Below, piece after piece: positions 4,028-31,100 of a stretch of 45,304 nt of DNA; within the stretch, counting starts at the first letter, position 1, and the number at the start of each line of letters is the position of its first letter. The notes under the pieces were generated by a model. The model was not told the origin of the DNA and made no database searches. It saw only the letters and a list, made by a program, of their open reading frames with translations. This DNA is from Mucispirillum schaedleri. Its GTDB lineage: Bacteria; Chrysiogenota; Deferribacteres; Deferribacterales; Mucispirillaceae. Position numbers and translations under genes: made by a program. Location of the stretch: assembly GCA_949287985.1 (NCBI GenBank), contig CASEIN010000060.1, positions 1-45,304 on the forward strand, given 5' to 3'.

Positions 4028-5509
4028 ATGGCTCTTTCAATAGTAAATAACTCAACAGCAATTGGCGCTCAAGGAAGTGTTAATAATGCAAATAATGCTC
4101 TTACAAAAACAATTAAAGCACTTTCTACTGGTTTAAGAATTAACTCTGCAGCAGATGATGCTTCAGGTTTAGCAGTTTCTGAAAAATTAAGAGGACAGAT
4201 TTCTGGTCTTGCAAAAGCTGCATCTAACGCACAAGATGCAATTTCTATGCTGCAAACTGCAGAAGGTGCAATGGGTTCTATGACTTCTATGGTTCAACGT
4301 ATAAGAGAACTTGCAATTCAAGCAGGTAACCCAGCTTACACTACAAGCGACCGTGCAGTTTTACAACTTGAGGTTGACCAGTTAAGAGAAGAAATTGACA
4401 GGGTTTCAAATACTACTGAATTTAACACTAAAAAATTATTAAATGGTGATGCTTCAGGCTACTGGTCTGCAAATACTGATAAACTTGAAGCAATATTAAC
4501 AGGTTCTGTTGAAGATGGAAGCTATGTTGTAAGTGCAACTATTTCTGTATCTGGAACAGCTTCAGTTTATCAATCAGCAGCATTTAATCGTGTAAATTCA
4601 GCAGGTGCAACAGTTACTGCAAGTGGTGGTGCCAGCCTTTCTGCTGTTACATCTTTCATTGATGCTACAAGTGGCAGTTTTATATTACAAAACACACAGG
4701 AACTTACTATTTATGCCAATGGTAAATCAGCATCTGTGTTCTTAGGTCAAGGTGATACTATTAGTTCTGCTGTTACAAAATTAAATGATGCTATGATTGA
4801 ACTTGGACTTGTAGCTGCAGGAAGCTCAGGTGTTACTTATTCAAATGGTATAACATTTACACCTACTGCTGTAAAAGGTGAACAATCAGAAATGACATTT
4901 GTGGGCAGTGAAAGTTTAATTAAAGCATTAGAAATTAAACAAACTACTAAAGGCACAAATGATACAGTAACAGTTAATGTTTTATCTTCTGCTGGCGGCA
5001 CAAATTTAGGTTCATATACAACAAAAGATGGTATAGCTAGAAATATTTTAGATGGAGTTGACTTAAAAGTTAGCAAGCTTACAGGTAATTCTACATTTAA
5101 TCTCTCCATTAAAAATAACGCTACAAAAGCAATTATTGGTGCTAATGAAGGTCAAACATTAGATATTTCTATCGGCAGAGTTGATACTGTTTCTTTAGGC
5201 ATTGATAATATTAATATTACAAATATTCAAGGGGCAGAAAAAGCAACTGGTAAACTTGATTTAGCACTTGAAAAAATAAATAAAGCACGCTCTACTATGG
5301 GTGCTCAAATGAACAGGCTTGAATATACTGTTAACAACTTAAATATTACAAGAGAAAATATGATAGCTTCTGAAAGCCGTATCCGTGACTTAGATATTGC
5401 TCAGGCTTCAAGTGATTTAGCTTCTCAGCAAGTTGTTCTTCAGTCTGCAACAGCCATGCTTGCTCAAGCTAACTTAATACCAACTTATGCTATGACACTG
5501 CTGCAATAA
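4028..5509 (+). CDS. Flagellin, 493 aa
   Basis: This is a flagellar filament subunit, exported by the flagellar type III system and polymerised outside the cell. Residues 1-140 form the D0/D1 N-terminus (LSTGLRINSAADDASGLA at about 32-49, then the LQTAEGAM helix and a region ending EFNTKKLL). Residues about 400-493 form the conserved C-terminus (MGAQMNRLEYTVNNL, then ESRIRDLDIA and a final LLQ). The central 145-400 is a variable, Ser/Thr-rich domain that would be surface exposed and is a plausible target for O-linked glycans. The start has an excellent Shine-Dalgarno (GGAGG, spacing 9). It is nearly identical at the N-terminus to the partial flagellin at 1-372 but faces the other way and lacks a recognisable sigma-28 promoter. 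Confidence 0.97.
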   Translation: MALSIVNNSTAIGAQGSVNNANNALTKTIKALSTGLRINSAADDASGLAVSEKLRGQISGLAKAASNAQDAISMLQTAEGAMGSMTSMVQRIRELAIQAGNPAYTTSDRAVLQLEVDQLREEIDRVSNTTEFNTKKLLNGDASGYWSANTDKLEAILTGSVEDGSYVVSATISVSGTASVYQSAAFNRVNSAGATVTASGGASLSAVTSFIDATSGSFILQNTQELTIYANGKSASVFLGQGDTISSAVTKLNDAMIELGLVAAGSSGVTYSNGITFTPTAVKGEQSEMTFVGSESLIKALEIKQTTKGTNDTVTVNVLSSAGGTNLGSYTTKDGIARNILDGVDLKVSKLTGNSTFNLSIKNNATKAIIGANEGQTLDISIGRVDTVSLGIDNINITNIQGAEKATGKLDLALEKINKARSTMGAQMNRLEYTVNNLNITRENMIASESRIRDLDIAQASSDLASQQVVLQSATAMLAQANLIPTYAMTLLQ

Positions 5510-5960: not shown

Positions 5961-8381
5961 TTAACCTATTGTTTGAAGTAATGCTAAAGCTTGTTGTGGG
6001 ATTTTATTAGCCTGAGCAACCATAGCTGTAGCAGACTGAACTAATACTTGGTTTTTAGTAAGGTTAGTTGTTTCTTCTGCTATATCTAAATCTCTAATAC
6101 GGCTTTCAGCAGCTGTTAAGTTTTCTCTTGCAGTTTCTAAATTATTAATAGTGTACTCTAATCTATTCATTTGAGCACCAACAGTAGCCCTTGTTGCTGT
6201 TAATATTTCAAGTGCTCTGTCTATTTTTGTTATAGACCTTTGAGATAATTCTAAATCCATAACATATACATCATCAATTTCAAGCCCAGTCGTGTCAAGC
6301 TGGCTTACAGATATATTTAAAGTTTGACCTTCATTAGCACCAATTTGAAGTTCAGTGCGGTTATCAACCACGTGAAGGTAAGCTGTAGATACTTCATTTG
6401 TTGCTCTAAATTCAAATGATTTAGTGCTGTCATTCCATATTGGTTCAATACCTGCATCTTGTTCTATTGTTATATCCATACCATTAATAATGTTTCTTGC
6501 TTTGCCATCATTTACATTATCATTACCTATAAATTTACCAGTGTGCGCATCAGTTACTGTTACATCAATACTTGAGTTTTCACCTTTTTGAATAGTATTT
6601 AACCCTAATGCATTCATAATATTTTGGTCTGCTGTGAAAACAAGTTCGCTGTCTCTACCTAAAGCTGCAGACTGGATTACAAATGTTCCTGGAACAGATT
6701 CGTTAGTTCCTGCAGTTGCTTTATTTGCACCACTATTTGCAACACCTTCTTTAGATACATATCTTACTAAACTTTCGTTTACTATTTGACCATTTACTGT
6801 AGTTGTATCTGCACCTAAACCAAGCTCCATTAATGCTGCAGTTAATTTTTTATCAAAGTCTTCAATAGTATCATCTTGTTCTATGTAAATTGTTGTAGAT
6901 TTACCCATGTTATATATTGTAATATCTTGTGTATTTGCAAGTAAATTTACACCATCAGCATTTGTAAACTGAGTAAGGTCTGCAAGTTTTGTATCTTTTG
7001 TAGCTGGTCCTGAGTCCCTTACATTTACAGTAGTTGTTCCAGATATTAAAACACCTGCTGTTTGAGTTGCAGCTCCCGGAGTGCCTTCTCTAAATTCAGC
7101 TGTAATGCTGCCATAGCTTACAACACCAGTTTTAGGGTCTAAATTTGCCATGTGGTATTTCACTTTATTAAAATCTATAACCTGGTCACCATTGTCTGCT
7201 TTTACAAGGCTGCCTGCTGCAGAGAATGTAAGAACTGGGCCATTATCAATTTGAAGTGAACCAGAACCACTTGCTGCACCATTAAATGCATTTGAAGCTG
7301 CATCAAATACTGATACTATTTTATCTCCAGGTTGAATTGTAGCGCCACCACCAGGCATTTTTAATGTCATTACTGCTGTATTTGGATTTGCACCACCTAA
7401 ATTTAATGTAATTGTAGCTGTAGTATCTGCAGCTGCTGTTGCTTCTACCCATGAGCTTAATTCGCCAGTTTTACTGTCCATGTAACGATAGCGATATGTA
7501 AAACCACCAGTTACTGTGCCATTAGTTGTGCTTACAATTTCAAGCTCATAATAACCACTTGTTAAGTTACCGTTATTAGTAAATGTTGCAGAAGAAATTC
7601 TCCAGTTAGTTTGAGCACCTTCTGCACCATGGTATGTTTGCATTGCTGATAATGTATGTTCTGCATTTGTATCATTATCAATAGTATCTGTTTGACCTTT
7701 TACTGTGATAGTCATACCTGCAGAATCTGTAGTTAATATGTTTTCTGGGTCTCTTACACTTGTAACTGAAGCGCTTTGTGTAGTATTAGTTACTTCTGCT
7801 ACTAACACACCATCTTTAACCTGCATAATTTGTGATTTATATACATCATTTAATCCAGGTTTAATAGAGCTGTCCACTTTATAGTTACCTTCTGCTACTT
7901 CAGGTCCTTTAACTACTGCACCAAGGTAATCTTCAGTTGCTGACCATAAAGCTGTGCCACTGCCATCAAGAAGTTTTTTAGTGTTAAATTCTGAAGTTCT
8001 AGAAATTCTGTTTATTTCTTCTTTTAACTGGTCTACTTCAAGCTGAAGCATTTCCCTATCATTTGTTGTATATATACCGTTACCAGCTTGAACTGCAAGC
8101 TCACGCATACGCTGAAGCATGCTTGTAACAGAACCCATTGCACCTTCTGCAGTTTGTAAATAAGAGATACCATCTTGAGCGTTCATACTTGCTCTTTTCA
8201 TACCACTTATTTGACCACGTAATTTTTCAGATATTGCAAGCCCTGATGCATCATCAGCTGCTGTATTTATTCTTAATCCAGAAGACAATCTTTGTAAAGA
8301 TTTTGTCTGCATATTACTTGCTATGTTTAAATATTTTTGTGCACCTATGCTTGGTACATTGTTATAAATTGATAAAGCCAT
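5961..8381 (-). CDS. Large flagellin, 806 aa
   Basis: This flagellin has standard ends but an unusually long middle. Residues 1-140 (MALSIYNNVPSIGAQ, RINTAADDASGLAISEKLR) and about 715-806 (GAQMNRLEYTINNLE, ESRIRDLDIAEE, ending ALLQTIG) are the D0/D1 domains. The roughly 570 residues between them are Thr/Ser/Gly/Ala-rich and low in charge, as in surface-exposed D2/D3 domains, including repeated NTTQ/TTATIT-like stretches. Most bacterial flagellins are 250-550 aa. The start has the shared CACGGAGG Shine-Dalgarno (complement of about 8390-8397). Two tandem sigma-28 promoters lie 380-490 bp upstream, and a bidirectional terminator follows. It probably makes a thicker or decorated filament segment or a separate filament layer. 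Confidence 0.96.
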   Translation of the reverse strand: MALSIYNNVPSIGAQKYLNIASNMQTKSLQRLSSGLRINTAADDASGLAISEKLRGQISGMKRASMNAQDGISYLQTAEGAMGSVTSMLQRMRELAVQAGNGIYTTNDREMLQLEVDQLKEEINRISRTSEFNTKKLLDGSGTALWSATEDYLGAVVKGPEVAEGNYKVDSSIKPGLNDVYKSQIMQVKDGVLVAEVTNTTQSASVTSVRDPENILTTDSAGMTITVKGQTDTIDNDTNAEHTLSAMQTYHGAEGAQTNWRISSATFTNNGNLTSGYYELEIVSTTNGTVTGGFTYRYRYMDSKTGELSSWVEATAAADTTATITLNLGGANPNTAVMTLKMPGGGATIQPGDKIVSVFDAASNAFNGAASGSGSLQIDNGPVLTFSAAGSLVKADNGDQVIDFNKVKYHMANLDPKTGVVSYGSITAEFREGTPGAATQTAGVLISGTTTVNVRDSGPATKDTKLADLTQFTNADGVNLLANTQDITIYNMGKSTTIYIEQDDTIEDFDKKLTAALMELGLGADTTTVNGQIVNESLVRYVSKEGVANSGANKATAGTNESVPGTFVIQSAALGRDSELVFTADQNIMNALGLNTIQKGENSSIDVTVTDAHTGKFIGNDNVNDGKARNIINGMDITIEQDAGIEPIWNDSTKSFEFRATNEVSTAYLHVVDNRTELQIGANEGQTLNISVSQLDTTGLEIDDVYVMDLELSQRSITKIDRALEILTATRATVGAQMNRLEYTINNLETARENLTAAESRIRDLDIAEETTNLTKNQVLVQSATAMVAQANKIPQQALALLQTIG

Positions 8382-8891: not shown

Positions 8892-8920
8892 TTGACTTTT
8901 TAAGTATATATGGTAGTATT
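8892..8920 (+). promoter_or_regulatory. Possible promoter of the acyl-carrier cluster
   Basis: TTGACT at 8892-8897 is followed after 17 bases by AGTATT (8915-8920). It would place the transcript start near 8927, before the preferred ATG at 8946 and after the upstream ATG at 8910, which supports the shorter protein. The -10 box is weak. Confidence 0.35.
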
Positions 8921-8945
8921 ACTAAAATATAAATTCGGTGTATAT

Positions 8946-9890
8946 ATGATTAAACATTCAATATATCTTCCTCTAAATAAAATTGAAAATGACCACTTTG
9001 CTTCTATATATGATGATTGGGATTCAGAACGCTTTTTTAGTCAAACAGGAATAAAATCAAGATATTATGCTAGCCCAAATGAAACATCTGGCAGTATGGC
9101 TGCAGCGGCACTTTCAAATTTAATAGATAAATATAATATAGATAAAAATTGTATTGATTTTATCGTATGTGTAACAGAAACCCCAGATAATCTTCTTCCA
9201 GCAACAGCTTATAAGGTGCACCAAATAGTAGGGCTGTCAAATAAATGTGGTGCATATGATATTAATCATGGATGTTCAGGCTTTACATATGGAATAATGA
9301 ATGCATGCAATCTTATTAATTCTGGAATGGCTAATAATGTTGCACTGTTAAATACTGATACTCTATCTCACTATCTTGATAAAAACGATAGAGGCATAAC
9401 CACAATTGTTGGCGATGCTGCATCTGCTTTTTTAATAGATAAAGCTACATGCAGTAATATAATGAACTTTGTATATGGAACAGATAGCTCAGGGTATGAT
9501 AAGCTACTTATTAAACCAAAAGACGATGATAAAAGTAAAGAACAATATCTTTATATGGACGGAATGGATGTTTTTTATTTTGCAATAAATAATGTACCTA
9601 ATATTATCAAAGAAATTCTACAAGCTAATAATTTATCTATTGATGATATTGATTTTATAGTCTTACATCAAGCAAATAAAACCATACTGGAATATGTAAA
9701 AAAAAGGCTGAAAATTAAAGATGAAAAATTTTATATTAATTTAGAAGAAACTGGTAATACAGCAAGTGTAACAATTCCTATAGCAATAAATAATTTAGTT
9801 AAAAATGGAGATTTAAAAGATAATATGAATATTCTAATTTTGGGATTTGGTGTTGGATATTCATGGTGTGGGACCGTTATAAGGTGGTAA
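8946..9890 (+). CDS. FabH-like 3-oxoacyl-ACP synthase III
   Basis: This thiolase-fold condensing enzyme joins an acyl-CoA or acyl-ACP to a malonyl-type extender. Start 8946 gives 314 aa opening MIKHSIYLP, as in FabH proteins; the ATG at 8910 would add 12 unrelated residues. The Cys-His-Asn triad is visible: C110 in INHGCSGF, H241 in LHQAN, N271 in TGNTAS. The C-terminal GFGVGYSWC matches the family's GFGxGxxW. An acyl carrier protein starts one base after the stop, followed by an SDR reductase, so this is a dedicated short acyl-building set rather than the housekeeping fab operon. C. jejuni has a comparable fabH2 (Cj1303) in its flagellin-glycan locus. The true substrate is unknown. Confidence 0.9.
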   Translation: MIKHSIYLPLNKIENDHFASIYDDWDSERFFSQTGIKSRYYASPNETSGSMAAAALSNLIDKYNIDKNCIDFIVCVTETPDNLLPATAYKVHQIVGLSNKCGAYDINHGCSGFTYGIMNACNLINSGMANNVALLNTDTLSHYLDKNDRGITTIVGDAASAFLIDKATCSNIMNFVYGTDSSGYDKLLIKPKDDDKSKEQYLYMDGMDVFYFAINNVPNIIKEILQANNLSIDDIDFIVLHQANKTILEYVKKRLKIKDEKFYINLEETGNTASVTIPIAINNLVKNGDLKDNMNILILGFGVGYSWCGTVIRW

Positions 9891-9891
9891 T

Positions 9892-10113
9892 ATGACTTTT
9901 GAAGAAAAAATGAAAATATTTAAAGAAACTTTCCTTATTGATGAAAGTATAGAGTTAAGTGGCAATACTATTCTTAATACTTTGGATAATTGGGATTCTA
10001 TGTCTAAGTTATCATTAATTGTTATTTTTAAAGATTATTGTAATAAAAAATTAACATTTGATATGTTAAACAGCTTTTCTTCAATACAAGATATATTTGA
10101 TGCTATGGATTAA
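9892..10113 (+). CDS. Acyl carrier protein 1
   Basis: This 73-residue acidic carrier protein has the phosphopantetheine attachment motif at DSM (D35-S36-M37 in NWDSMSKL). It should be converted to the holo form by a phosphopantetheinyl transferase encoded elsewhere and hold the acyl intermediate for the neighbouring FabH-like and SDR enzymes. Its sequence is far from housekeeping AcpP (no DSLDTVE), matching a specialised role. It lies one base after the synthase gene and three bases before the reductase gene. Confidence 0.88.
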   Translation: MTFEEKMKIFKETFLIDESIELSGNTILNTLDNWDSMSKLSLIVIFKDYCNKKLTFDMLNSFSSIQDIFDAMD

Positions 10114-10116
10114 AAA

Positions 10117-10860
10117 ATGAGTATAACTAATAACACATATTTAATAATTGGAGCAACAGGTGGGATAGGTATAGATTTAGCCCATACACTAGCAAAACAA
10201 AAAGCAAATATAATAATTTCTGGCTCAAATAATAGCAAACTAGATAAGTTATATAATGAACTTCAAAAAATTTCTAACTGTGACCATAGTAGAGAACAAC
10301 TAGATTTAAATAATATAAATGATATTGAACATGTATTTAATAAACTACGGACAAAATACAAACGAATTGATGGATTAATATACTGTGCTGGTATTGCACC
10401 ATTATGTCCATCTTTCCTAACTAAATATAACGATATGATAAAAACTTTTAATATTAATTATTTTGCATTTGTAGAATTTGCTAGATTATTTGCAAAACAA
10501 ACTTTCACCAAAGATAATATGGGACATATTATAGCTATATCATCAATATCATCAACACTGAATGAAAAAGGAAGGTTATCATACTCATCATCAAAAATTG
10601 CACTTGAAACATCTGTTAAATTATTTGCAAAAGAACTAATTGCAAGAAATATTTGTGTTAATGCTATTAGACCTGCAATAGTTAATACCGAATTAGGTCA
10701 AAACTATCTTGAGATAATAGGTGAAAACAATATTAATCATATACAGCCTCTTGGATATATTGAGACAAATGAAATAAATGAACTTATTCTTTATATTATA
10801 TCACAAAAAAGACCAAAAACAACTGGTACCATATTTGATATAAATGGAGGAATTTTATAA
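10117..10860 (+). CDS. SDR-family oxidoreductase (FabG-like)
   Basis: A 247-residue short-chain dehydrogenase/reductase. The nucleotide-binding GATGGIG is at residues 12-18, the CAG (NAG-type) motif at about 90-92, a catalytic serine lies in ISSISS at about 141-146, and the YSSSK motif gives Y156 and K160. Length and layout are those of 3-oxoacyl-ACP reductases, so it probably reduces the product of the upstream condensing enzyme on the carrier protein. It ends IFDINGGIL like FabG. Its stop overlaps the start of the next gene by one base (TAATG), suggesting coupled translation. Confidence 0.87.
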   Translation: MSITNNTYLIIGATGGIGIDLAHTLAKQKANIIISGSNNSKLDKLYNELQKISNCDHSREQLDLNNINDIEHVFNKLRTKYKRIDGLIYCAGIAPLCPSFLTKYNDMIKTFNINYFAFVEFARLFAKQTFTKDNMGHIIAISSISSTLNEKGRLSYSSSKIALETSVKLFAKELIARNICVNAIRPAIVNTELGQNYLEIIGENNINHIQPLGYIETNEINELILYIISQKRPKTTGTIFDINGGIL

Positions 10861-12950
10861 TGTTCGTTCATTATCTCAAATTCGTTGAAAAGCTCAATAT
10901 TTCCAGTGGGAATATTATCTTTATAGCTTCAGATATTTCTAAACTCGCTTATGAAGCACAAGAGAACGATATTGTTTTTAATATTAATGAATTTATAGAT
11001 GCGATTACAAATAAAATTGGTAACGAAGGAACATTAATCTTACCTGTCTATAATTGGGATTTTTGTAAAAACATACCTTTTGACTATAATAAAACAATAG
11101 GTAAAACTGGTTATTTAGGTAACGCTGCTCTCAAGCGCAATGATTTTATCAGAACAAAGCATCCTATTTATTCATTTGCAGTATGGGGAAAAGATAAACA
11201 TTACCTTGCTTCCATTGATAATATACATGCATTTGGTAAAAATACTGTTTACCAGTATCTAATAGATAATCACGCCACAAATATTGCTATTAATGTTAAT
11301 TTTAATGACCATTACACAATTTGTCATCAGATAGAACAACTTGTTGGTGTGCCATATCGATATAACAAATATTTTAAAGGTGATTATATTGATGTGAATA
11401 ATAATATATCAAAAAAAACATATTCAATGAGTGTTCGTTATCTCGAATTATCTCTTTCTGGTGATGCTGTTGAACTCTATAATGAGATGTTAGACAAGAA
11501 AATTGCATATGAGCAGAAGATAGGTAGTCATACAGTATCATATATAGATATTGCAAAATCAGTTGCAGTTATTGAAAATGATATTTTACATAACAATGCC
11601 CTTAAACAGATTCAATATAATCATAATAAAGCTAGATTATTCCATCAAAAATTACAATTAAAGGAAATAATTACCGATATATTTTCTATAACACGCTCCA
11701 TTTCTGGTAATGGTAATAGACAGACATTAAAATATTTAAAAGAAAACTATCTTGGAGAACTTAAAATACTTGAATATTCTATTGCTGATAACCCAACAAT
11801 TTTTGACTGGGAAACACCATATGAATGGAATATTGATGAAGCTTACATTGAAGATGAAAACGGAAATAAAATAATAGATTTTAAAAACAATAACCTGCAT
11901 ATTTTAGGCTATTCTGAACCTGTGGATATTACAATACCATTTTCAGAACTTGATAATCACTTATATTCACTAGAAGATGATATTGATGCTATACCATATG
12001 TTACATCATATTATAAAACACGCTGGGGGTTCTGTATTACCCACAGGCAGAGAGAAGAGTTGCGTAAAAACCCTAAACAATTATACCATGTAGTTATTAA
12101 ATCGACACTTAATAAAAACGGCTCTATTACATATGGTGAGCTTATTATTAATGGCTATGAAGATGATGAAATATTAATATCTACATACATATGCCATCCA
12201 TCAATGGCTAATGATAACCTATCAGGCATAGCTGTTGCAACTAAAATTGCAAAATATATATATGCACTGCCAGAAAGAAAATATACATATCGCATTATTT
12301 TTATTCCAGAAACTATTGGTGCTTTAATTTATTTAAAAGAAAATATAACACACCTGCAAAAGTATGTAAAGGCAGGATTTGTGCTTTCTTGTATTGGCGA
12401 TGACGGTGATTATTCCTGCGTCCATACTCCATATAATAATACATATACAGATAAAATAGTTACCCATGTTTTAAAACATATTACAGATGAGCCTAAAGAA
12501 TATTCATTTTTAGAGCGTGGAAGTGATGAAAGGCAGTTTTGTGCTCCTAATGTAAACTTACCAATATGCACACTTTCACGCACCAAGTTTGGCAAATTTA
12601 AAAAGTATCACACATCAAATGATAACCTTGATTTTGTTACTGAAAAAGGCTTGCAAGGTGGTTTTGAGTATGTAAAAAAATGTATTGATATATTAGAAAA
12701 CAATAATATATATAAAATAAAAACAGTTGGTGAGCCTCAGCTTGGAAAATATGGTTTATACCCTACTATCAGCCAAAAAGGAAGTGCTGACTATACAAGA
12801 CGCCTTACAAATATTATTGCATACCTTAACGGTGAAAACTCTATACTTGATATTGCAGAAATATTAAATGTACCTTTTAATGAGGTATTAGAAATTATTA
12901 ATCAATTAATAGAAACAAATTTAATAAATATGGCTGGAAAAGATATATGA
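10860..12950 (+). CDS. AAC(3)-family acyltransferase fused to DUF4910 aminopeptidase-like protein
   Basis: A 696-residue fusion. Residues 1-about 245 match the aminoglycoside 3-N-acetyltransferase family (GTLILPVYNWDFCK at 57-70, RTKHPIYSFAVWG at 98-110, DHYTICHQIEQ at 150-160). Residues about 265-615 match DUF4910/DUF2172, a zinc-peptidase-like fold, with candidate ligands H446 and D452 (CHPSMANDNLSG), E484 (PET), D556 (GSDERQF) and H584 (KYHTSNDN). Residues about 640-690 look like the small winged-helix tail seen in such proteins. In C. jejuni the two parts are separate neighbours: Cj1296/Cj1297 (AAC(3)-like) and Cj1295, which is needed for a dimethylglyceric-acid-type change of the flagellin glycan. 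I infer transfer or processing of an acyl group on a sugar, not antibiotic resistance. It overlaps the next gene by four bases. Confidence 0.85.
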   Translation: MFVHYLKFVEKLNISSGNIIFIASDISKLAYEAQENDIVFNINEFIDAITNKIGNEGTLILPVYNWDFCKNIPFDYNKTIGKTGYLGNAALKRNDFIRTKHPIYSFAVWGKDKHYLASIDNIHAFGKNTVYQYLIDNHATNIAINVNFNDHYTICHQIEQLVGVPYRYNKYFKGDYIDVNNNISKKTYSMSVRYLELSLSGDAVELYNEMLDKKIAYEQKIGSHTVSYIDIAKSVAVIENDILHNNALKQIQYNHNKARLFHQKLQLKEIITDIFSITRSISGNGNRQTLKYLKENYLGELKILEYSIADNPTIFDWETPYEWNIDEAYIEDENGNKIIDFKNNNLHILGYSEPVDITIPFSELDNHLYSLEDDIDAIPYVTSYYKTRWGFCITHRQREELRKNPKQLYHVVIKSTLNKNGSITYGELIINGYEDDEILISTYICHPSMANDNLSGIAVATKIAKYIYALPERKYTYRIIFIPETIGALIYLKENITHLQKYVKAGFVLSCIGDDGDYSCVHTPYNNTYTDKIVTHVLKHITDEPKEYSFLERGSDERQFCAPNVNLPICTLSRTKFGKFKKYHTSNDNLDFVTEKGLQGGFEYVKKCIDILENNNIYKIKTVGEPQLGKYGLYPTISQKGSADYTRRLTNIIAYLNGENSILDIAEILNVPFNEVLEIINQLIETNLINMAGKDI

Positions 12951-13696
12951 ATGAAAACATAAAATTAACAGAGCAGGAAAAACTATACTGGGAAAAAATC
13001 TTTAATACAGAATTTATTTTTGAAAAAGGCTGTTACAGCACATGTAACAGCCACTGCTGTAGGTGGGATACTCCTGATTTACCACTAACAATTATACCAA
13101 AAGGTGGTACTCTTTTTTATCTACCTAAAGAATATGCATATATTTCTAAATATGGAAAAATAACTGAAATACCACCCTATAAAATGAAAACAAAATTATT
13201 TGATAAAGAACTTTTTATATACTATAAACATTGTAATGATGATGCCAATTGTAATATTAAGTTTTCACGTTCACTTTATTGTAAGCTCTATCCTTTTATA
13301 CCTGTTTTTGATATAGAGGGAAATCTGTTGGATTTAAAATTTATTTCAATATATGATGTTACATATGATTTTATAGGACAAAAATCACCCTGCTATGTAA
13401 AAGATTTGAAAGATAAATACATGGATTTATGGAAGCAAAAAGATTCTAATATACATTTGCTGAAAAATCCGTACACATTATTTTATTTAATGGTTGGTAA
13501 CTTAATACACGATAATTATGTGGAGACATTAAAATCAAATAATAAATTAATTAATTTACAAGGTAAAGAATTCTGGAAAAAATGGGAAAAATTATACCTT
13601 GCAGGCAGACTTATAAATAAAAATAAACTTGAAAAAGATATTGAAAAACTTTATAATGACTTCAATATAAAATATAATTTTTCTCTTGAGGATTAA
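12947..13696 (+). CDS. Cysteine-cluster protein (YkgJ-like metal-binding?)
   Basis: A 249-residue soluble protein with a CxxxCxxxCC cluster near the N-terminus (C29, C33, C37, C38 in GCYSTCNSHCCRW) and three later cysteines in HCNDDANCN and LYCKLYPF. The pattern recalls YkgJ/CxxCxxCC proteins, which are thought to bind zinc or iron-sulfur. The rest is rich in Lys, Tyr and Asn and I do not recognise it. ATGA overlap with the upstream fusion gene and immediate abutment with the second carrier-protein gene place it firmly in the operon. A hydroxylase or redox role on the carrier-bound group is possible but only a guess. Confidence 0.6.
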   Translation: MNENIKLTEQEKLYWEKIFNTEFIFEKGCYSTCNSHCCRWDTPDLPLTIIPKGGTLFYLPKEYAYISKYGKITEIPPYKMKTKLFDKELFIYYKHCNDDANCNIKFSRSLYCKLYPFIPVFDIEGNLLDLKFISIYDVTYDFIGQKSPCYVKDLKDKYMDLWKQKDSNIHLLKNPYTLFYLMVGNLIHDNYVETLKSNNKLINLQGKEFWKKWEKLYLAGRLINKNKLEKDIEKLYNDFNIKYNFSLED

Positions 13697-13930
13697 ATGG
13701 ATACAATAAGACAAAAAATAGTTGATATTTTTGCAAATAACAGTATAGATGTCTTGTCAGTAGATGAGAATAAATCATTAATTGAATCAGGTATAGTAGA
13801 TTCTATGACATTTGTAAATATTCTATTAGAAATAGAAGAATCTCTTAACATTGAAATAGATTTTGAAAAAGTTGATTTCATATCTATTGTATCATTAAAA
13901 GGGCTTTACTCCCATATTGTTGCATTATAG
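13697..13930 (+). CDS. Acyl/peptidyl carrier protein 2
   Basis: A 77-residue carrier protein with the attachment motif in GIVDSMTFV (D35-S36-M37). It begins directly after the preceding stop. It resembles the D-alanyl/aminoacyl carrier type (DltC-like GIVDS) more than AcpP, and an adenylation enzyme is encoded nearby at 14719, so it is likely charged with an amino acid. C. jejuni has a similar pair (Cj1307 adenylation, Cj1308 carrier). Its last six bases overlap the end of the convergent methyltransferase frame. Confidence 0.85.
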   Translation: MDTIRQKIVDIFANNSIDVLSVDENKSLIESGIVDSMTFVNILLEIEESLNIEIDFEKVDFISIVSLKGLYSHIVAL

Positions 13931-14655
13931 CTTTTCAATAAACATATGGTACATACTTTGATTTTTTTCTGATTTAATATATGAATTATCATCTGATATT
14001 TCATATGTTATTCTGTCATTTCTTCTTAGAAAAACTATTTTAAACCTATTATCTAAAATATTGATTACACCATATAAGCCTATATTATTTATATATATAC
14101 TTTCACCTTTAAAAGATTTACTAGCACTATAATCATCTTTAAAAAGTCTTATATTCTTGGTACATATTTCTCCCTGTGGTGTTAATAAAGCAATCCCCCC
14201 CCCCCGACTAAAACTCTATGTACTTCATCAATTGCTTTTTTATATATTTCTTCATTCACACACACTAATACACCATGGTCTATTACTATATGAAAAAAAG
14301 TATCTTTAAATGGCATATTATCAACTGATGCTACCTGAATATTACCATACAGACCAGTAGAATCAAATGATTTTATACAATAATCAACAGCTGTTTGGGA
14401 GATATCTATACCATATACATTATACCCAAGAGATGCTGCATATTTTATATTTGCCCCACTGCCGCAACCTATTTCTAAAATATTTATATTTTCAGGTTTA
14501 CTTTCAGGATATTTTTTTTCAAAAAAATTTAATAATTCTATAACAATAGGAAATGGAAACTTCATCATAGCTTTATCGCCCGTTGTTTGATATAAATTTT
14601 CCCATAAATTACTCAAGGTACACCCCAAGAAATCATATTTACACTCACATATCAT
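13925..14655 (-). CDS. SAM methyltransferase with a G11 tract, phase OFF
   Basis: The open frame starts at ATG 14655 and shows SAM-binding motif I (ILEIGCGSGANI, residues 59-70), with GIDIS and DHGVLV as later Rossmann strands. At residue 151 it enters 11 G (complement of 14195-14205) and stops at TAA 14182, giving 157 residues. If the run were 9 or 12 G, the frame would stay open through ALLTPQGEIC, RRNDRITYEIS and FIEKL to a TAA at 13925 (242 residues with G9). The clean 89-codon continuation argues against a chance ORF. So this is a class I methyltransferase whose C-terminal third is switched off by slipped-strand mispairing, as in the phase-variable C. jejuni flagellin-glycan genes. It lies opposite its neighbours and converges on carrier protein 2. 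A base-count error is possible. Confidence 0.8.
14195..14205. repeat. Homopolymeric C11/G11 tract (contingency tract)
   Basis: Eleven consecutive C on the plus strand in otherwise highly AT-rich DNA, inside the reading frame of the methyltransferase. Tracts of this kind mutate by slippage and switch genes on and off. Confidence 0.9.
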
Positions 14656-14718: not shown

Positions 14719-16257
14719 ATGAATATTCAAAAAATATTATTTCAATCTTTAAATAATTTTAGTGAAAATAATGCACTATATATAGATGATAAATATTATA
14801 CATACAGCTTTTTAAAACAGTTTTCAGTAAAAACAGCTAAAAGTATTTTAAATATTGAAAATAAAAAACAATCAGTTATTATTATGGGCTCAAGAAGTTT
14901 TTATACATATGCAGGTATTTTAGGAACTATTATATCTGGTTCATATTACACTCCTTTAAATGAGACCTTTCCCATAGAAAGAAATATTAATATAATAAAA
15001 ATTTCTCAAGCAAAAACTATAGTATTAGATATAGAAGATTTTAAAAATTATGAAACAATTTTAGATAACTTAGAAAATTATAATATTATATGCCTTAATG
15101 GTGATATTAATGATTTAAAGAAACGTTTTCCTAAACATAATTTTGATTATAAAGATAATAACCTTGAAAATATTGAAGTATGTGATGATGATACTATATA
15201 TATGCTTTTTACTTCAGGGAGTACAGGTGTTCCTAAGGGTATTAAAATATCACATTATAATATATATAACTATATTCATGCTTTTATTAAAAGAAATCCT
15301 ATTTATAGTGATGATAGATTTATACAAATGAATGATTTAACATTTGATTTATCAGTTCATTCTTTATTTTTATCTATTTTGCATGGTGCATGCTTATATA
15401 TACCTAGTAGAAGCGAAAGAATAAACCCAGTAAAATTTATTAATGACTACAGTATTACAAATATTCTAATGGTTCCATCATCTATAGCGTTTATGAAAAA
15501 AATGAGAGTATTAAAAGATAATTCACTTATGTCCGTTAAATATTTATCATTTTGTGGTGAAACATTACCTTTTGATAATGCAATATTAATGGCCAAAGCA
15601 GCACCTAATGCAAAGCTTGAAAATTTATATGGTCCTACAGAGGCTACTATTGCATGTACATATTTTGAATTTGATAAAAATACCGAAGAATTAATAGAAT
15701 ATTCTGGCTCTATGCCTATAGGAAATGCTTATGATGGAATGAATGTGGAACTTTTTGATAATAATCTAAATAAAATCATTGATAATAGTATCGGGCAAAT
15801 TGTATTATCTGGTAAACAACTTACTACAGGTTATGTTAATAATAAAGAACAAACAAAAGAAAAATTTATAATGATAGATAATAAACTTCACTATATTACT
15901 GGAGATTTAGGTAGAGTTATCAATAATAAACTAGTATTTCTTGGTAGAAATGATTCTCAAGTGCAGATAAAAGGTTATAGAGTGGAAATTTTTGAAATAG
16001 AACATGCAATATCCAAAATTAATGGCATTATTAGTAATGCTGTAATACCAACCCCTGTTGGTGCTGTTACATATGAAAATACCACTGCGTTCATAACATG
16101 TAACACAAATATTGATTTAATAAAAATAAAAGAAGAATTAAGTAAAAAATTACCAAATTATATGGTTCCTAATAACATTATCATACTTGATAATATGCCA
16201 TTAAACTCCAATGGTAAAATTGATAGAAATCAGTTAAAGAAAATATTACAACCATAA
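14719..16257 (+). CDS. Adenylation enzyme (NRPS A-domain / DltA-like)
   Basis: This 512-residue stand-alone AMP-forming enzyme activates a carboxylate, probably an amino acid. Visible motifs: TSGSTGVPKG (165-174), FDLSVHSL with the Asp (D210) that binds the amino group in amino-acid-activating enzymes, LYGPTEAT (303-310), TGDLGR (394-399), GRNDSQVQIKGYRVE (409-423) and the catalytic Lys in NGKIDR (K500). It has no attached carrier or condensation domain, so it would load a free carrier, most likely the one at 13697. Cj1307 in the C. jejuni flagellar locus is comparable. Start ATG follows CGGAG at good spacing. Its gene diverges from the phase-variable methyltransferase across 63 bases. Confidence 0.9.
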   Translation: MNIQKILFQSLNNFSENNALYIDDKYYTYSFLKQFSVKTAKSILNIENKKQSVIIMGSRSFYTYAGILGTIISGSYYTPLNETFPIERNINIIKISQAKTIVLDIEDFKNYETILDNLENYNIICLNGDINDLKKRFPKHNFDYKDNNLENIEVCDDDTIYMLFTSGSTGVPKGIKISHYNIYNYIHAFIKRNPIYSDDRFIQMNDLTFDLSVHSLFLSILHGACLYIPSRSERINPVKFINDYSITNILMVPSSIAFMKKMRVLKDNSLMSVKYLSFCGETLPFDNAILMAKAAPNAKLENLYGPTEATIACTYFEFDKNTEELIEYSGSMPIGNAYDGMNVELFDNNLNKIIDNSIGQIVLSGKQLTTGYVNNKEQTKEKFIMIDNKLHYITGDLGRVINNKLVFLGRNDSQVQIKGYRVEIFEIEHAISKINGIISNAVIPTPVGAVTYENTTAFITCNTNIDLIKIKEELSKKLPNYMVPNNIIILDNMPLNSNGKIDRNQLKKILQP

Positions 16258-24278: not shown

Positions 24279-25688
24279 CTATTTCAATTTCATTAGATAA
24301 ATAGTTCTTTTAGTATTTTCTATGGCAACCTTTTCTAATATAACAAAATGTCTCCCAAAAGCTTGTTCAAAGTTTTCACTAGTGTAGTAAGAATAATCTC
24401 CAATTTTTTCATCTAATATTTTCATTGTTTGAGAATCATCTTTTGGAACCCATTCAATTATTAAATATTTTGTAAAAGAAGCAAAAAACTCAGCAAATTT
24501 ATTAAAAGGGACATTATTTGTAATAGTTATATGATGAATTAATGCAAGTGCTAAAGTAATATCACTATTTTTTATTCTCTCTATAAAAGAATCTCGTTCT
24601 GTATTAGCCCAACCAATACTTGCTGCAGGATTTGTTAAATCCGTAATCACAGGATATATATTTTTATATTTCTCATCACTTTGGATTAACTTGTAATTTT
24701 CATCAACAGCATGGTAATCTAAATCTGATGAAATAATAATACTTTCTGGATACTGATGGCTGACAATCCTTGAAAAATGACCATTATTTGCTCCTAAATC
24801 TACTACCTTATATTTACTGTCACACTTATTAATAAACTCTAGCAATAGATTTTCTTTCGTATGAAAAGCTTCCTTATCATAGTTTGTAAAGCTGTAATAA
24901 CCATTCCAGTTACTTTGTCCCTTACTAGTATTATAATGAATATTTGATACAGTATTTATTAAATTTTCAATTAAATTTAATAAACTCTGTTTTTTTAGGT
25001 GCAGCTGTTTATGATTTCCACTATCTTTTACTGCTTTTTGATGTATTTTTGAGTTTAAATGTAAATGCATTAAAAGCCCCCCCCCAGCTTTAAATATAGT
25101 TTTTAAAGGAAGTAATTTTGATGCATAATCAAGCGGAATACCATCAAGGAAATTAATACTAAGATTATACATTCTGTAATCACAATAGGCTATTAATGCA
25201 AGTGGTGCTAAAAAATGCCTGCAAAATTGACTATATGCCTGCCATACACTACCTTCATTATATTTTTCAAATGAAAGCGTATCAATAAAAATTGGTCTGC
25301 CTTTATAAAATTGTATATTAAAAGCAGTTGCATCCTTTAATATCATATTGTATTTTAAAGCTTCAAGAAGCACTTTTAAAGTTAGTAATGCAGCATCTTT
25401 TAATTGATGAAAACTCCATTCATATGGGTATGAAATATATGGAAGCTGAATAGGCTTAATTATCTTATATACATCGTCACTAAACATATTAAATTGCTCT
25501 ATATTAGAAATTTCCTCATGAGATACCAATATTTCATCCATTACTAATTTATCATATAATCCAGATGAAATTAAAAAATCATAATTTTCTTTATACGCCT
25601 TATTGATACATCTGTATACAATATTGTCATGCTTAAATACGTATCCACCAGCATATATATCACGAAAAGATGAATTTAGAACTTGCAT
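24279..25688 (-). CDS. SAM-dependent methyltransferase with an in-frame G9 tract
   Basis: A 469-residue class I methyltransferase. Residues 1-about 200 match the N-terminal part of a NoeA-like family (FRDIYAGGYVFKHDNIVYRCINKAYKENYDFL and SSGLYDKLV). SAM-binding motif I, KVVDLGANNGHFSR, is at about residue 295-308, with IIISSDLD after it, IIEWVPKDD near the end and RTIYLMKLK as the C-terminus. A run of nine G (complement of 25077-25085) encodes G202-G204 and keeps the frame open. One base more or less would truncate it before the catalytic domain. It is therefore a likely phase-variable gene in the ON state. It converges with the sulfatase-fold group, and its target is probably a surface glycan. 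Confidence 0.85.
   Translation of the reverse strand: MQVLNSSFRDIYAGGYVFKHDNIVYRCINKAYKENYDFLISSGLYDKLVMDEILVSHEEISNIEQFNMFSDDVYKIIKPIQLPYISYPYEWSFHQLKDAALLTLKVLLEALKYNMILKDATAFNIQFYKGRPIFIDTLSFEKYNEGSVWQAYSQFCRHFLAPLALIAYCDYRMYNLSINFLDGIPLDYASKLLPLKTIFKAGGGLLMHLHLNSKIHQKAVKDSGNHKQLHLKKQSLLNLIENLINTVSNIHYNTSKGQSNWNGYYSFTNYDKEAFHTKENLLLEFINKCDSKYKVVDLGANNGHFSRIVSHQYPESIIISSDLDYHAVDENYKLIQSDEKYKNIYPVITDLTNPAASIGWANTERDSFIERIKNSDITLALALIHHITITNNVPFNKFAEFFASFTKYLIIEWVPKDDSQTMKILDEKIGDYSYYTSENFEQAFGRHFVILEKVAIENTKRTIYLMKLK
25077..25085. repeat. Homopolymeric C9/G9 tract (contingency tract)
   Basis: Nine consecutive C on the plus strand within the methyltransferase frame. It is the second long C/G run in this AT-rich window, and both lie in methyltransferases. 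Confidence 0.85.
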
Positions 25689-28149: not shown

Positions 28150-31100
28150 CTACCTGCCTGCTCGTGCTACCTGCTCCAGTGTTACCGATAATATAGTAGA
28201 TACACCATATTCCTGCATAGCAACACCATAAATTGAATCTGCAATACTCATAGTATTATGGTTATGAGTAATAAGTATAAACTGAGTTTTATCTGATAAT
28301 GCTTTAACCATACCCACATACCTTTCCACATTGGCATCATCAAGTGGAGCATCTACCTCATCAAGAAAGCAAAATGGTGTTGGCTTTTGTAAAAATAATG
28401 CAAATAATAATGTCATAGCAGTAAGTGCTTTTTCTCCACCTGATAAAAGCCCCATATGCTGCAATTTCTTACCCGGTGGCTGAATATATATCTCTACACC
28501 ACTTGTAAGCATATTATCAGGGTCCGTAAGTTTTAACTCCGCCTCACCATTACCAAATAATATATGGAAAACTTCCACAAACTTACCTTTTACAGAATTA
28601 AATGTTTCTTCAAACATTCTAACGGTAGCTTCATCTGTTTCATTAATAAATGAATTTATATCGTCAATAGAGCCTTCTAAATCACTTCTTTGTTCTGTTA
28701 AAAATTTATAACGTTCTTCTGCCTCTTTATAATCATTCATAGCATTTAAGTTAATAGGCCCAAGCTCATCAAGTTTGTTTTCTATTCTATTCATTTCCTC
28801 TTTAATACGTCTTGGTTCCTTATCTTTTTCTGCATGGCTTAAATAATCAGCAGATATATCTATGCCGTATTTATCCATATATGTTACGGCACTTGTTTCT
28901 AAAACAGATGTAACACCTGCTAAATCAAGCTCATATTTTCTAACTTCATCATCTAATTCTTTAATACTGCTGTTTACATTTTCTGCATTTTTACGAAGTT
29001 CATCAATTCTATCCCGCATTTCCTCAAGTTTTACAGCAGCATTTTTTACTTCCTCTTCACAAGTTAATGTATCTTTAGTTATTTCATTTAATTTTTCTTT
29101 TAATGCTGCTAACTCATTATTCCAATTTAATGCATCTACCGTTAAAAGCTGTTCTAACCTTTGTTCTAATGTATTTAAATTTTTTGTAATACTTTCTTTA
29201 CTATTTCGTTTACTTTCTAAATCTTTCTTTAAAAACTGGGCTTTTTCGTCCTTTTGTGCAAACTGGATTTTTACTTCCATTTGTTCAGACTTTTTATCAT
29301 CAAGGTTATCTTTTAAGGTTTCAAGTTTTTCTTCAAGAATACTGCGTTTATCTTCTAATTCTACCTGCTGACTGCTGATTATTTCTATATCTTCTTTTAT
29401 TCTATTAATTTTTTCTGCATTATCATTTATATTTTTACTAGCTAACTCTATTTCTTTATCTATTATATCTTTTCGTTTAATAATACGCTCTTCTTCCAGT
29501 AATATACTTTTAAATTCTGTTTCTTTTTTTAAGTAATTATCTCGCGATGTATTATATAAGTTTTGCATTTCTTCTTGATGCTGTTTACTTTTTTCAAGAT
29601 TATTTTGGATATAGCCCATTATTTTTTCTATCTCAAATACTTCAAGCCCTGCTTTATCCTTACTGGTTTCTGCCTGTAATATATTATCTTTTAACGATAC
29701 TATTTGGTAACCCTTATCTTCCTGACCTGCCTTTTTATAAATATTTTTACTTAAAAAAATATTTTCAAAAACTTCGTCTACTTGAGTATTTAAAAGATAA
29801 TACCTTATTTTCTCTACATCAGACCTAAAAGCAAACCTAACAGACGATTTTAAAGTGGATACTTTTTCAAATATCTCATCTTTATTCTCATCACTAAAAA
29901 TAAAAACATCGCCAATATCTATTAAAAGCTTATGTTCCAAATCTGCAATAAAATCAATTAACAAACCCTGCATATAAGGTTTTAAAATAAGAGTTTCTTC
30001 ATTAAATGATGAGGCAGCCTCAAGCTGTTCCTGAAAAAATATAATACTATTTTCTAAACTTTTTATTTCTGCCTGCAAGCTTATTAATTTATCCTGCTCT
30101 TTATTATACTGCTCAAGATATTCTGCAACCTTATCTTTAGCATTTTTTAAATTTTCTTCATCTTGAACCATGCTAAACTGCAGCCCGTCAAGTTCCTGTT
30201 GAAATACATTTTTTCTCTCTTGTAAATCTTTGATAGATTTCTCTAAATTAGCCTGCTCATATTCCAACCGTTTCATATCCTGTAAAGCATGTTCATGGGC
30301 AGATTCTATTCTTATAAGCTCGTTACGTTTATTTGTGATTATACCAGTTGATTCAATATATTGCTCATCAGTTTCTTGAAATTCTTCTTCCACAGATTCT
30401 TTTTGGTTAATCATCTCATCAATAGCATCATTTAATTCATCTAACTTTTCTTCTACAAATTCTAATGCATCTCTTGCAGTATCAAGCTCATCAGTAAGAG
30501 TTTCTATTTCATTTGTTACTATCTCAAGCTTTTCTTTTTCCTGCTGTATATTTTGTGCTAAATCTGCCTTTATATCATCACTTGATAATATTTTTGTTTC
30601 TAAAGCCTTAATATCACCTTCTATATTAGCTTTTTCCGTAGCTTTAAATATACGCTTTTCCTGTAATTTTTCATATTCTTCCTGACTGGCTTTATATTCG
30701 TTGTTAGATAAATTTTCCACACGGACAATATCAGCATATTCTGTAAGCATACTTTCTAATCTTTTCTTTTGCTCTATAAGTTTTGATTTTATTTTAGATG
30801 CATCTTCTGCTTTTAAATAGTAGGAAGTGCATAAGTATGATTGCTCCAGCCTTTTAAAATTAGTCTGCAATTCTTCATATATTATAAGTTGTTCCACTTG
30901 AGATGATAAAGACTGCATTTGGGTAACTATTTCTTCTATAATATCTGTAACACGGTCAAGATTATCCCTTGTTTGCTGCAGCCTTCTTTCTGCTTCCCTT
31001 TTTTTATCTTTAAATTTAGTAACACCTGCTGTTTCTTCTAGGAAAAACCGTAACTCTTCAGGGCTTGCATTAATAATTTTATCTACCTTGCCTTGCTCAA

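Follow-up and report, generated by a model that had tools for sequence, protein, structure and literature searches.

A G11 tract in a methyltransferase gene of a flagellin-linked carrier-protein cluster: probable poly-G phase variation in Mucispirillum schaedleri

The window analysed here, a stretch of 45,304 nucleotides from a genome of Mucispirillum schaedleri, carries two flagellin genes recognised by Pfam (4028-5509 on the plus strand, and a second, larger one at 5961-8381 on the minus strand) and, beside them, a cluster of genes for carrier proteins and associated enzymes. On the plus strand the cluster contains a FabH-type ketoacyl-ACP synthase III (8910-9890; Pfam and NCBIfam); a small acidic protein without a Pfam match (9892-10113) that is probably a second carrier protein, judging from its position and its LDNWDSMSKLSL motif; a short-chain dehydrogenase / ketoreductase (10117-10860; Pfam and NCBIfam); a fusion of an Antibiotic_NAT acyltransferase with a DUF2172/DUF4910 domain of the Cj1295 type and HTH_47 (10860-12950; Pfam matches to PF16254 at 294 bits, PF09940 and PF02522); a conserved cysteine-rich protein of 249 aa without a Pfam or NCBIfam match (12947-13696); a DltC-like carrier protein (13697-13930; Pfam PF00550, the NCBIfam DltC-like match being below its cut-off); and a DltA-like, AMP-binding amino-acid/acyl adenylation enzyme (14719-16257; Pfam and NCBIfam). 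That this is a carrier-protein cluster beside flagellin had been proposed from the DNA letters and open reading frames alone (hereafter the sequence-only reading), and the domain matches and the two flagellins bear it out; the cluster also adjoins flagellin genes in two other Mucispirillum species, G003 and G008. Elsewhere the genome encodes a nonulosonate pathway and a Maf-type protein, with PseI at 478 bits (cut-off 340) and Maf PF01973 at 134 bits (cut-off 34.6), both of which exceed their cut-offs in ten of ten Mucispirillum species.

Between the last two of these cluster genes, on the minus strand, lies a gene for a class I SAM methyltransferase (13925-14616), convergent to the DltC-like carrier protein and divergent from the adenylation enzyme, and identified through Pfam, a profile of orthologs and the ortholog of the species G005. 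It is interrupted by a run of eleven G at 14195-14205, found by pattern search and shared as a site with G005 and G006, which throws the two halves of the gene out of frame; the minus-strand sequence around it reads GAGTTTTAGTC-G11-ATTGCTTTATTAACACC. The part before the tract has a SAM-binding motif and scores 64 bits against Methyltransf_25 PF13649 (cut-off 27) and 63 bits against Methyltransf_11 PF08241 (cut-off 21.2), and the structural model is of the Rossmann type. The frame opened at the ATG at 14655 runs through the tract and terminates at 14182, ending in ...RVLVGGGGLLY, so that the premature end of this OFF frame (LLY and the stop codon, 14182-14194) comes three residues past the tract. 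In another frame, from 14194 down to the stop codon at 13925-13927, there are 89 open codons that encode the C-terminal strands of the methyltransferase fold; the stop codon of this ON frame overlaps the convergent carrier-protein gene (13697-13930) by six bases. In a first-order Markov simulation, the probability of an open frame of this length in one or other of the two alternative frames came to about 0.002, and a chance origin, judged unlikely already in the sequence-only reading, becomes far less likely still because the frame is conserved as protein. For poly-G contingency genes we looked for a homopolymer of about eight or more bases inside a reading frame, a length that G11 exceeds.

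The ON product had been predicted at 242 aa. An in-frame ortholog was indeed found, but the length and the start probably do not hold: the true start is probably the TTG at 14616, the ATG at 14655 being too early, since the ortholog starts align at the TTG and the resulting ON protein of 229 aa equals that of G005 in length. As assembled, the product lacks a complete fold, which is found only in the ON frame of relatives. In a structural model of an ON ortholog (confident to about residue 145, with a C-terminal third of low confidence) the tract, at about residues 137-140, falls at the start of the strand at 136-144, and everything from that strand onward is absent from the OFF frame. Many class I methyltransferases have a conserved Lys-Pro-Gly-Gly in the loop before strand 5; the tract lies at this loop, where runs of glycine codons can therefore arise harmlessly.

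Conservation extends across the tract. A profile built from five ON orthologs of other species, with the window sequence left out, matches before the tract (model positions 3-147 at 14179-14613, E=1e-67) and again after it (136-230 at 13931-14212, E=7e-32), and the two matches occupy different frames that meet at the G tract. Compared with the G005 ortholog, the upstream part is 69% identical (dN 0.24, dS 0.68) and the downstream part 67% identical (dN 0.25, dS 1.92, dN/dS about 0.13, rough values at a dS this high); the out-of-frame part has no internal stops and no other indels. The profile and the purifying selection together indicate that a change in tract length brings two open segments of a single conserved protein into one frame, and the frameshift by G11 with an intact continuation of 89 codons, as well as the conservation of that continuation as protein, thus agree with what the sequence-only reading had claimed. 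The downstream half is, by its substitution pattern, still under purifying selection as protein although it is out of frame, which favours a recent or reversible OFF state.

Seven of the ten Mucispirillum species examined carry the gene (G001, G002 and G009 are without it), and its tract and reading frame vary among them. The in-frame relatives that had been called for were found in G005, with G10 at the same site and a protein of 229 aa, and in G006, with G9 at the same site; the ortholog of G008 is intact and free of tracts, and that of G007 has an in-frame run of C9 near its C-terminus. G003 has no G tract in the gene, but an A run that differs by one base (A8, versus A9 in G006; L033 at about 7220) disrupts the reading frame, and poly-A runs may thus also switch or break this gene. 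G004 has two tandem copies, the first intact and the second out of frame with a G9 near its N-terminus. ON and OFF lengths (G10 and G9 ON, G11 OFF) hence both occur among relatives, as differences between species: the orthologs are about 42-69% identical and come from one genome per species. Three different tract positions are found within this one gene family, while 0.066 tracts would be expected over its eight copies at the genome's own tract density; the probability of at least two tracts beyond the one first noticed is about 0.002, an indicative value only, since the copies share ancestry and the test was devised once the data had been seen. As a separate observation, the G004 tandem copies (L035 8887-10367, minus strand) are identical in protein after the tract, one being ON and the other OFF, and may represent a recent duplication or gene conversion.

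The presence of broken copies raises the question of decay. If the gene were a decaying pseudogene, with a fixed frameshift and a tract that merely marks where it broke, its OFF state in the window, the break in the A run of G003 and the OFF state of the second G004 copy would all be accounted for; but the downstream frame is under purifying selection like the upstream one, without stops or other indels, the breaks are located at repeats, and five intact copies exist in five other species, all of which make decay highly improbable. We consider it very likely, instead, that the methyltransferase gene is a contingency gene subject to poly-G translational phase variation.

Such tracts are widespread in the genome. 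In the source genome, runs of at least nine G number 29 (24 G9, four G10 and a single G11, the longest, in the methyltransferase gene), where base composition would lead one to expect 0.11 and a first-order model 0.45. Eight of nine other Mucispirillum genomes yield 16-55 nine-base matches, the ninth (G007, a genome only 57% complete) yielding two; elsewhere in the phylum most families show between zero and nine, the exceptions being families f7 and f9 and two genomes of the same family. A catalogue of tracts, built from the pattern search and fetched stretches, places about ten interior tracts of the source genome in frame and six out of frame, the rest being intergenic, at gene ends or unclear. 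The genes concerned have mostly glycan, acyl-transfer, surface and DNA-methylase functions, and include GT2 and GT8 glycosyltransferases, GtrII, an FdtA-like protein, a sulfatase-type membrane enzyme and an MBOAT O-acyltransferase gene whose tract is out of frame.

These counts bear on the exact length of the tract. The strain's gene might really be in frame and the length of eleven a product of sequencing or assembly, as the assembly is in 79 contigs, the closest named relatives are metagenome bins, and G11 is the longest run of the genome in a class of sequence where indel errors rise with length. This we regard as unlikely: about six of 16 interior tracts are out of frame, as phase variation predicts, and an in-frame tract would remain hypermutable, so that the switch would stand in either case. 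The tract and its two conserved halves stand even if the exact length of 11 is an assembly error.

Under phase variation, slipped-strand mispairing at the G tract would alter its length: lengths divisible by three would give the methyltransferase of 229 aa (or near), while other lengths, such as G11, would lead to a stop right past the tract and a product without beta-strand 5 onward. By its fold, that OFF product is almost certainly inactive, since the remainder of the sheet would be missing. A run of 11 G is in principle long enough for transcript slippage, by which RNA polymerase, or alternatively the ribosome, would obtain some full-length protein from the G11 allele. The frameshifting that PMC3068675 cites for G/C tracts in maf genes of Campylobacter lends this some substance, yet the length and position of the tract vary between species, unlike a programmed signal, and slippage seems to us quite improbable. 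Switching by tract length remains the preferred reading.

What the enzyme would modify is suggested by the neighbouring genes. Most likely, it methylates a small acyl or aminoacyl group held on the carrier proteins of the cluster, or the sugar bearing that group, before its attachment to the flagellin glycan by the NAT/DUF4910 protein or its partners; under switching, a population would then contain both methylated and unmethylated flagella. Direct searches for a substrate gave generic answers: for the part before the tract, the NCBIfam matches scored far below their cut-offs (the pseudaminic acid biosynthesis-associated methylase TIGR03587 at 29.5 bits, cut-off 112), and a PDB sequence search and Foldseek returned only generic small-molecule methyltransferases. 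With matches this general, and with many other tract genes being glycan genes, it is possible, if rather doubtful, that the gene is phase variable but acts on a surface glycan other than that of flagellin, or on a secreted molecule, made by the same carrier-protein cluster. Against this, the cluster adjoins flagellins in the window, in G003 and in G008, and its DUF2172/DUF4910 partner is of the Campylobacter flagellin-glycan type, Cj1295. On balance we favour the decoration of flagellin glycan as the target of the methyltransferase.

The best-known cases of poly-G phase variation come from Campylobacter, Helicobacter and Neisseria. The sequence-only reading had drawn a parallel to C. jejuni, and the parallel proves closer than it supposed, the DUF2172/DUF4910 protein of the window being of the Cj1295 type (PMC3068675, PMC6321876), joined to an acyltransferase and located near the flagellins at 4028-5509 and 5961-8381. 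In C. jejuni, Cj1295 is a DUF2172 gene switched by poly-G that was experimentally tested and is needed for di-O-methylglyceroyl-pseudaminic acid on flagellin (PMC3068675). Both systems would thus share a poly-G translational switch, a setting of flagellin modification and an acyl decoration that bears methyl groups; in addition, the DUF2172/DUF4910 domain is fused to an N-acetyltransferase domain in the window, and the C. jejuni neighbour Cj1296/7 is an N-acetyltransferase. They differ in phylum and in the identity of the switched gene, which in the window is the methyltransferase and not the DUF2172 protein: the NAT+DUF4910 fusion has an in-frame G9 only in G003, G006 and G009, with GGCTTGCAAGGTGGT in its place in the window; the resemblance of the two clusters is one of gene content and domain type. 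Outside the window, a second DUF2172/DUF4910 gene of the source genome (L069, G000:C5:106432-106440) has a G9 tract that puts it out of frame, which resembles the OFF state of Cj1295; and a formyltransferase/GNAT gene that adjoins PseI near Maf (L076, G000:C46, tract at 28575-28583) has an in-frame G9.

SAM methyltransferases, namely the UbiE_3 group with Cj0170, also belong to the core phasomes of Campylobacter (PMC6321876); their genes contain G tracts of 7-13 bases, as does that of the window's SAM methyltransferase, a likeness by family type. The matches found outside Mucispirillum by an alignment-based scan of contigs are distant, with at most 36% identity over more than 100 residues (a single-protein query against the genome contigs gave no match, whereas the alignment-based scan did). 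A third comparison is offered by sfmD of Shewanella oneidensis, a methyltransferase in a flagellin-modification operon, where the glycan varies by methylation steps of 14 Da (PMC3765264); in the parts of that paper available to us, the operon is similar in combining methyltransferase and ACP-reductase genes, and differs in its other enzymes and in that those parts describe no homopolymer switch.

Mucispirillum is a mucus-dwelling gut genus of the Deferribacterota. A search of the literature, restricted to open-access papers and so weak as evidence, turned up no account of phase variation in Mucispirillum or the Deferribacterota. The poly-G switch is well supported and ordinary in kind, stands within a sizeable phasome, and is apparently unreported in this phylum. 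We think it somewhat more probable than the contrary that Mucispirillum runs a multi-locus poly-G switching of its own, similar to that of Campylobacter, with tens of tracts and two DNA methylases, and that its flagellin-decoration methyltransferase gained a switch more than once. The switch is not universal (three species lack the gene, and G008 has it tract-free). A repeated gain at different places within the gene would point to selection for the switching function itself. That tracts occur at dozens of positions in a commensal of the gut from a different phylum, and that a flagellin-linked methyltransferase is switched at different places in different species, suggests that mucus as a habitat repeatedly favours random switching of flagellar decoration. 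Gnotobiotic mice could offer a way to follow related switches, because a defined mouse consortium in wide use counts M. schaedleri among its eight species (PMC5285517).

Convergence on the carrier gene had also led to the suggestion that switching affects antisense transcription into the operon, and this antisense control found no support. Promoter-like sites are no more frequent than chance predicts (18 against 18.1 expected), and the overlap of the methyltransferase gene with the carrier gene, kept in G005, is absent in G006. A terminator-like hairpin at 13052-13028 on the minus strand lies inside the cysteine-rich gene, where it is formed by the codons, including cysteine codons, of a GCYSTCNS motif, and it is probably a coincidence. 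An Rfam scan of the window gave no match, and a 32-base DNA match on contig C39 was treated as chance.

Further tracts were observed in other genes. Two DNA methylases of the PF01555 family carry them in the source genome, one in frame at G9 (L082, G000:C57, 2-1777) and one out of frame at G10 (L079, G000:C52, 3-2018), and are possible phase-variable epigenetic regulators. In the window, exactly one other G/C run of at least seven bases is present, a G9 at 25077-25085, located in frame in a minus-strand gene (24279-25688) for a protein of 469 aa that has a SAM-binding-like motif, VVDLGANNGHFS, and no Pfam match; its ortholog in G004 likewise has an in-frame G9 at this position, and that in G005 has no tract there.
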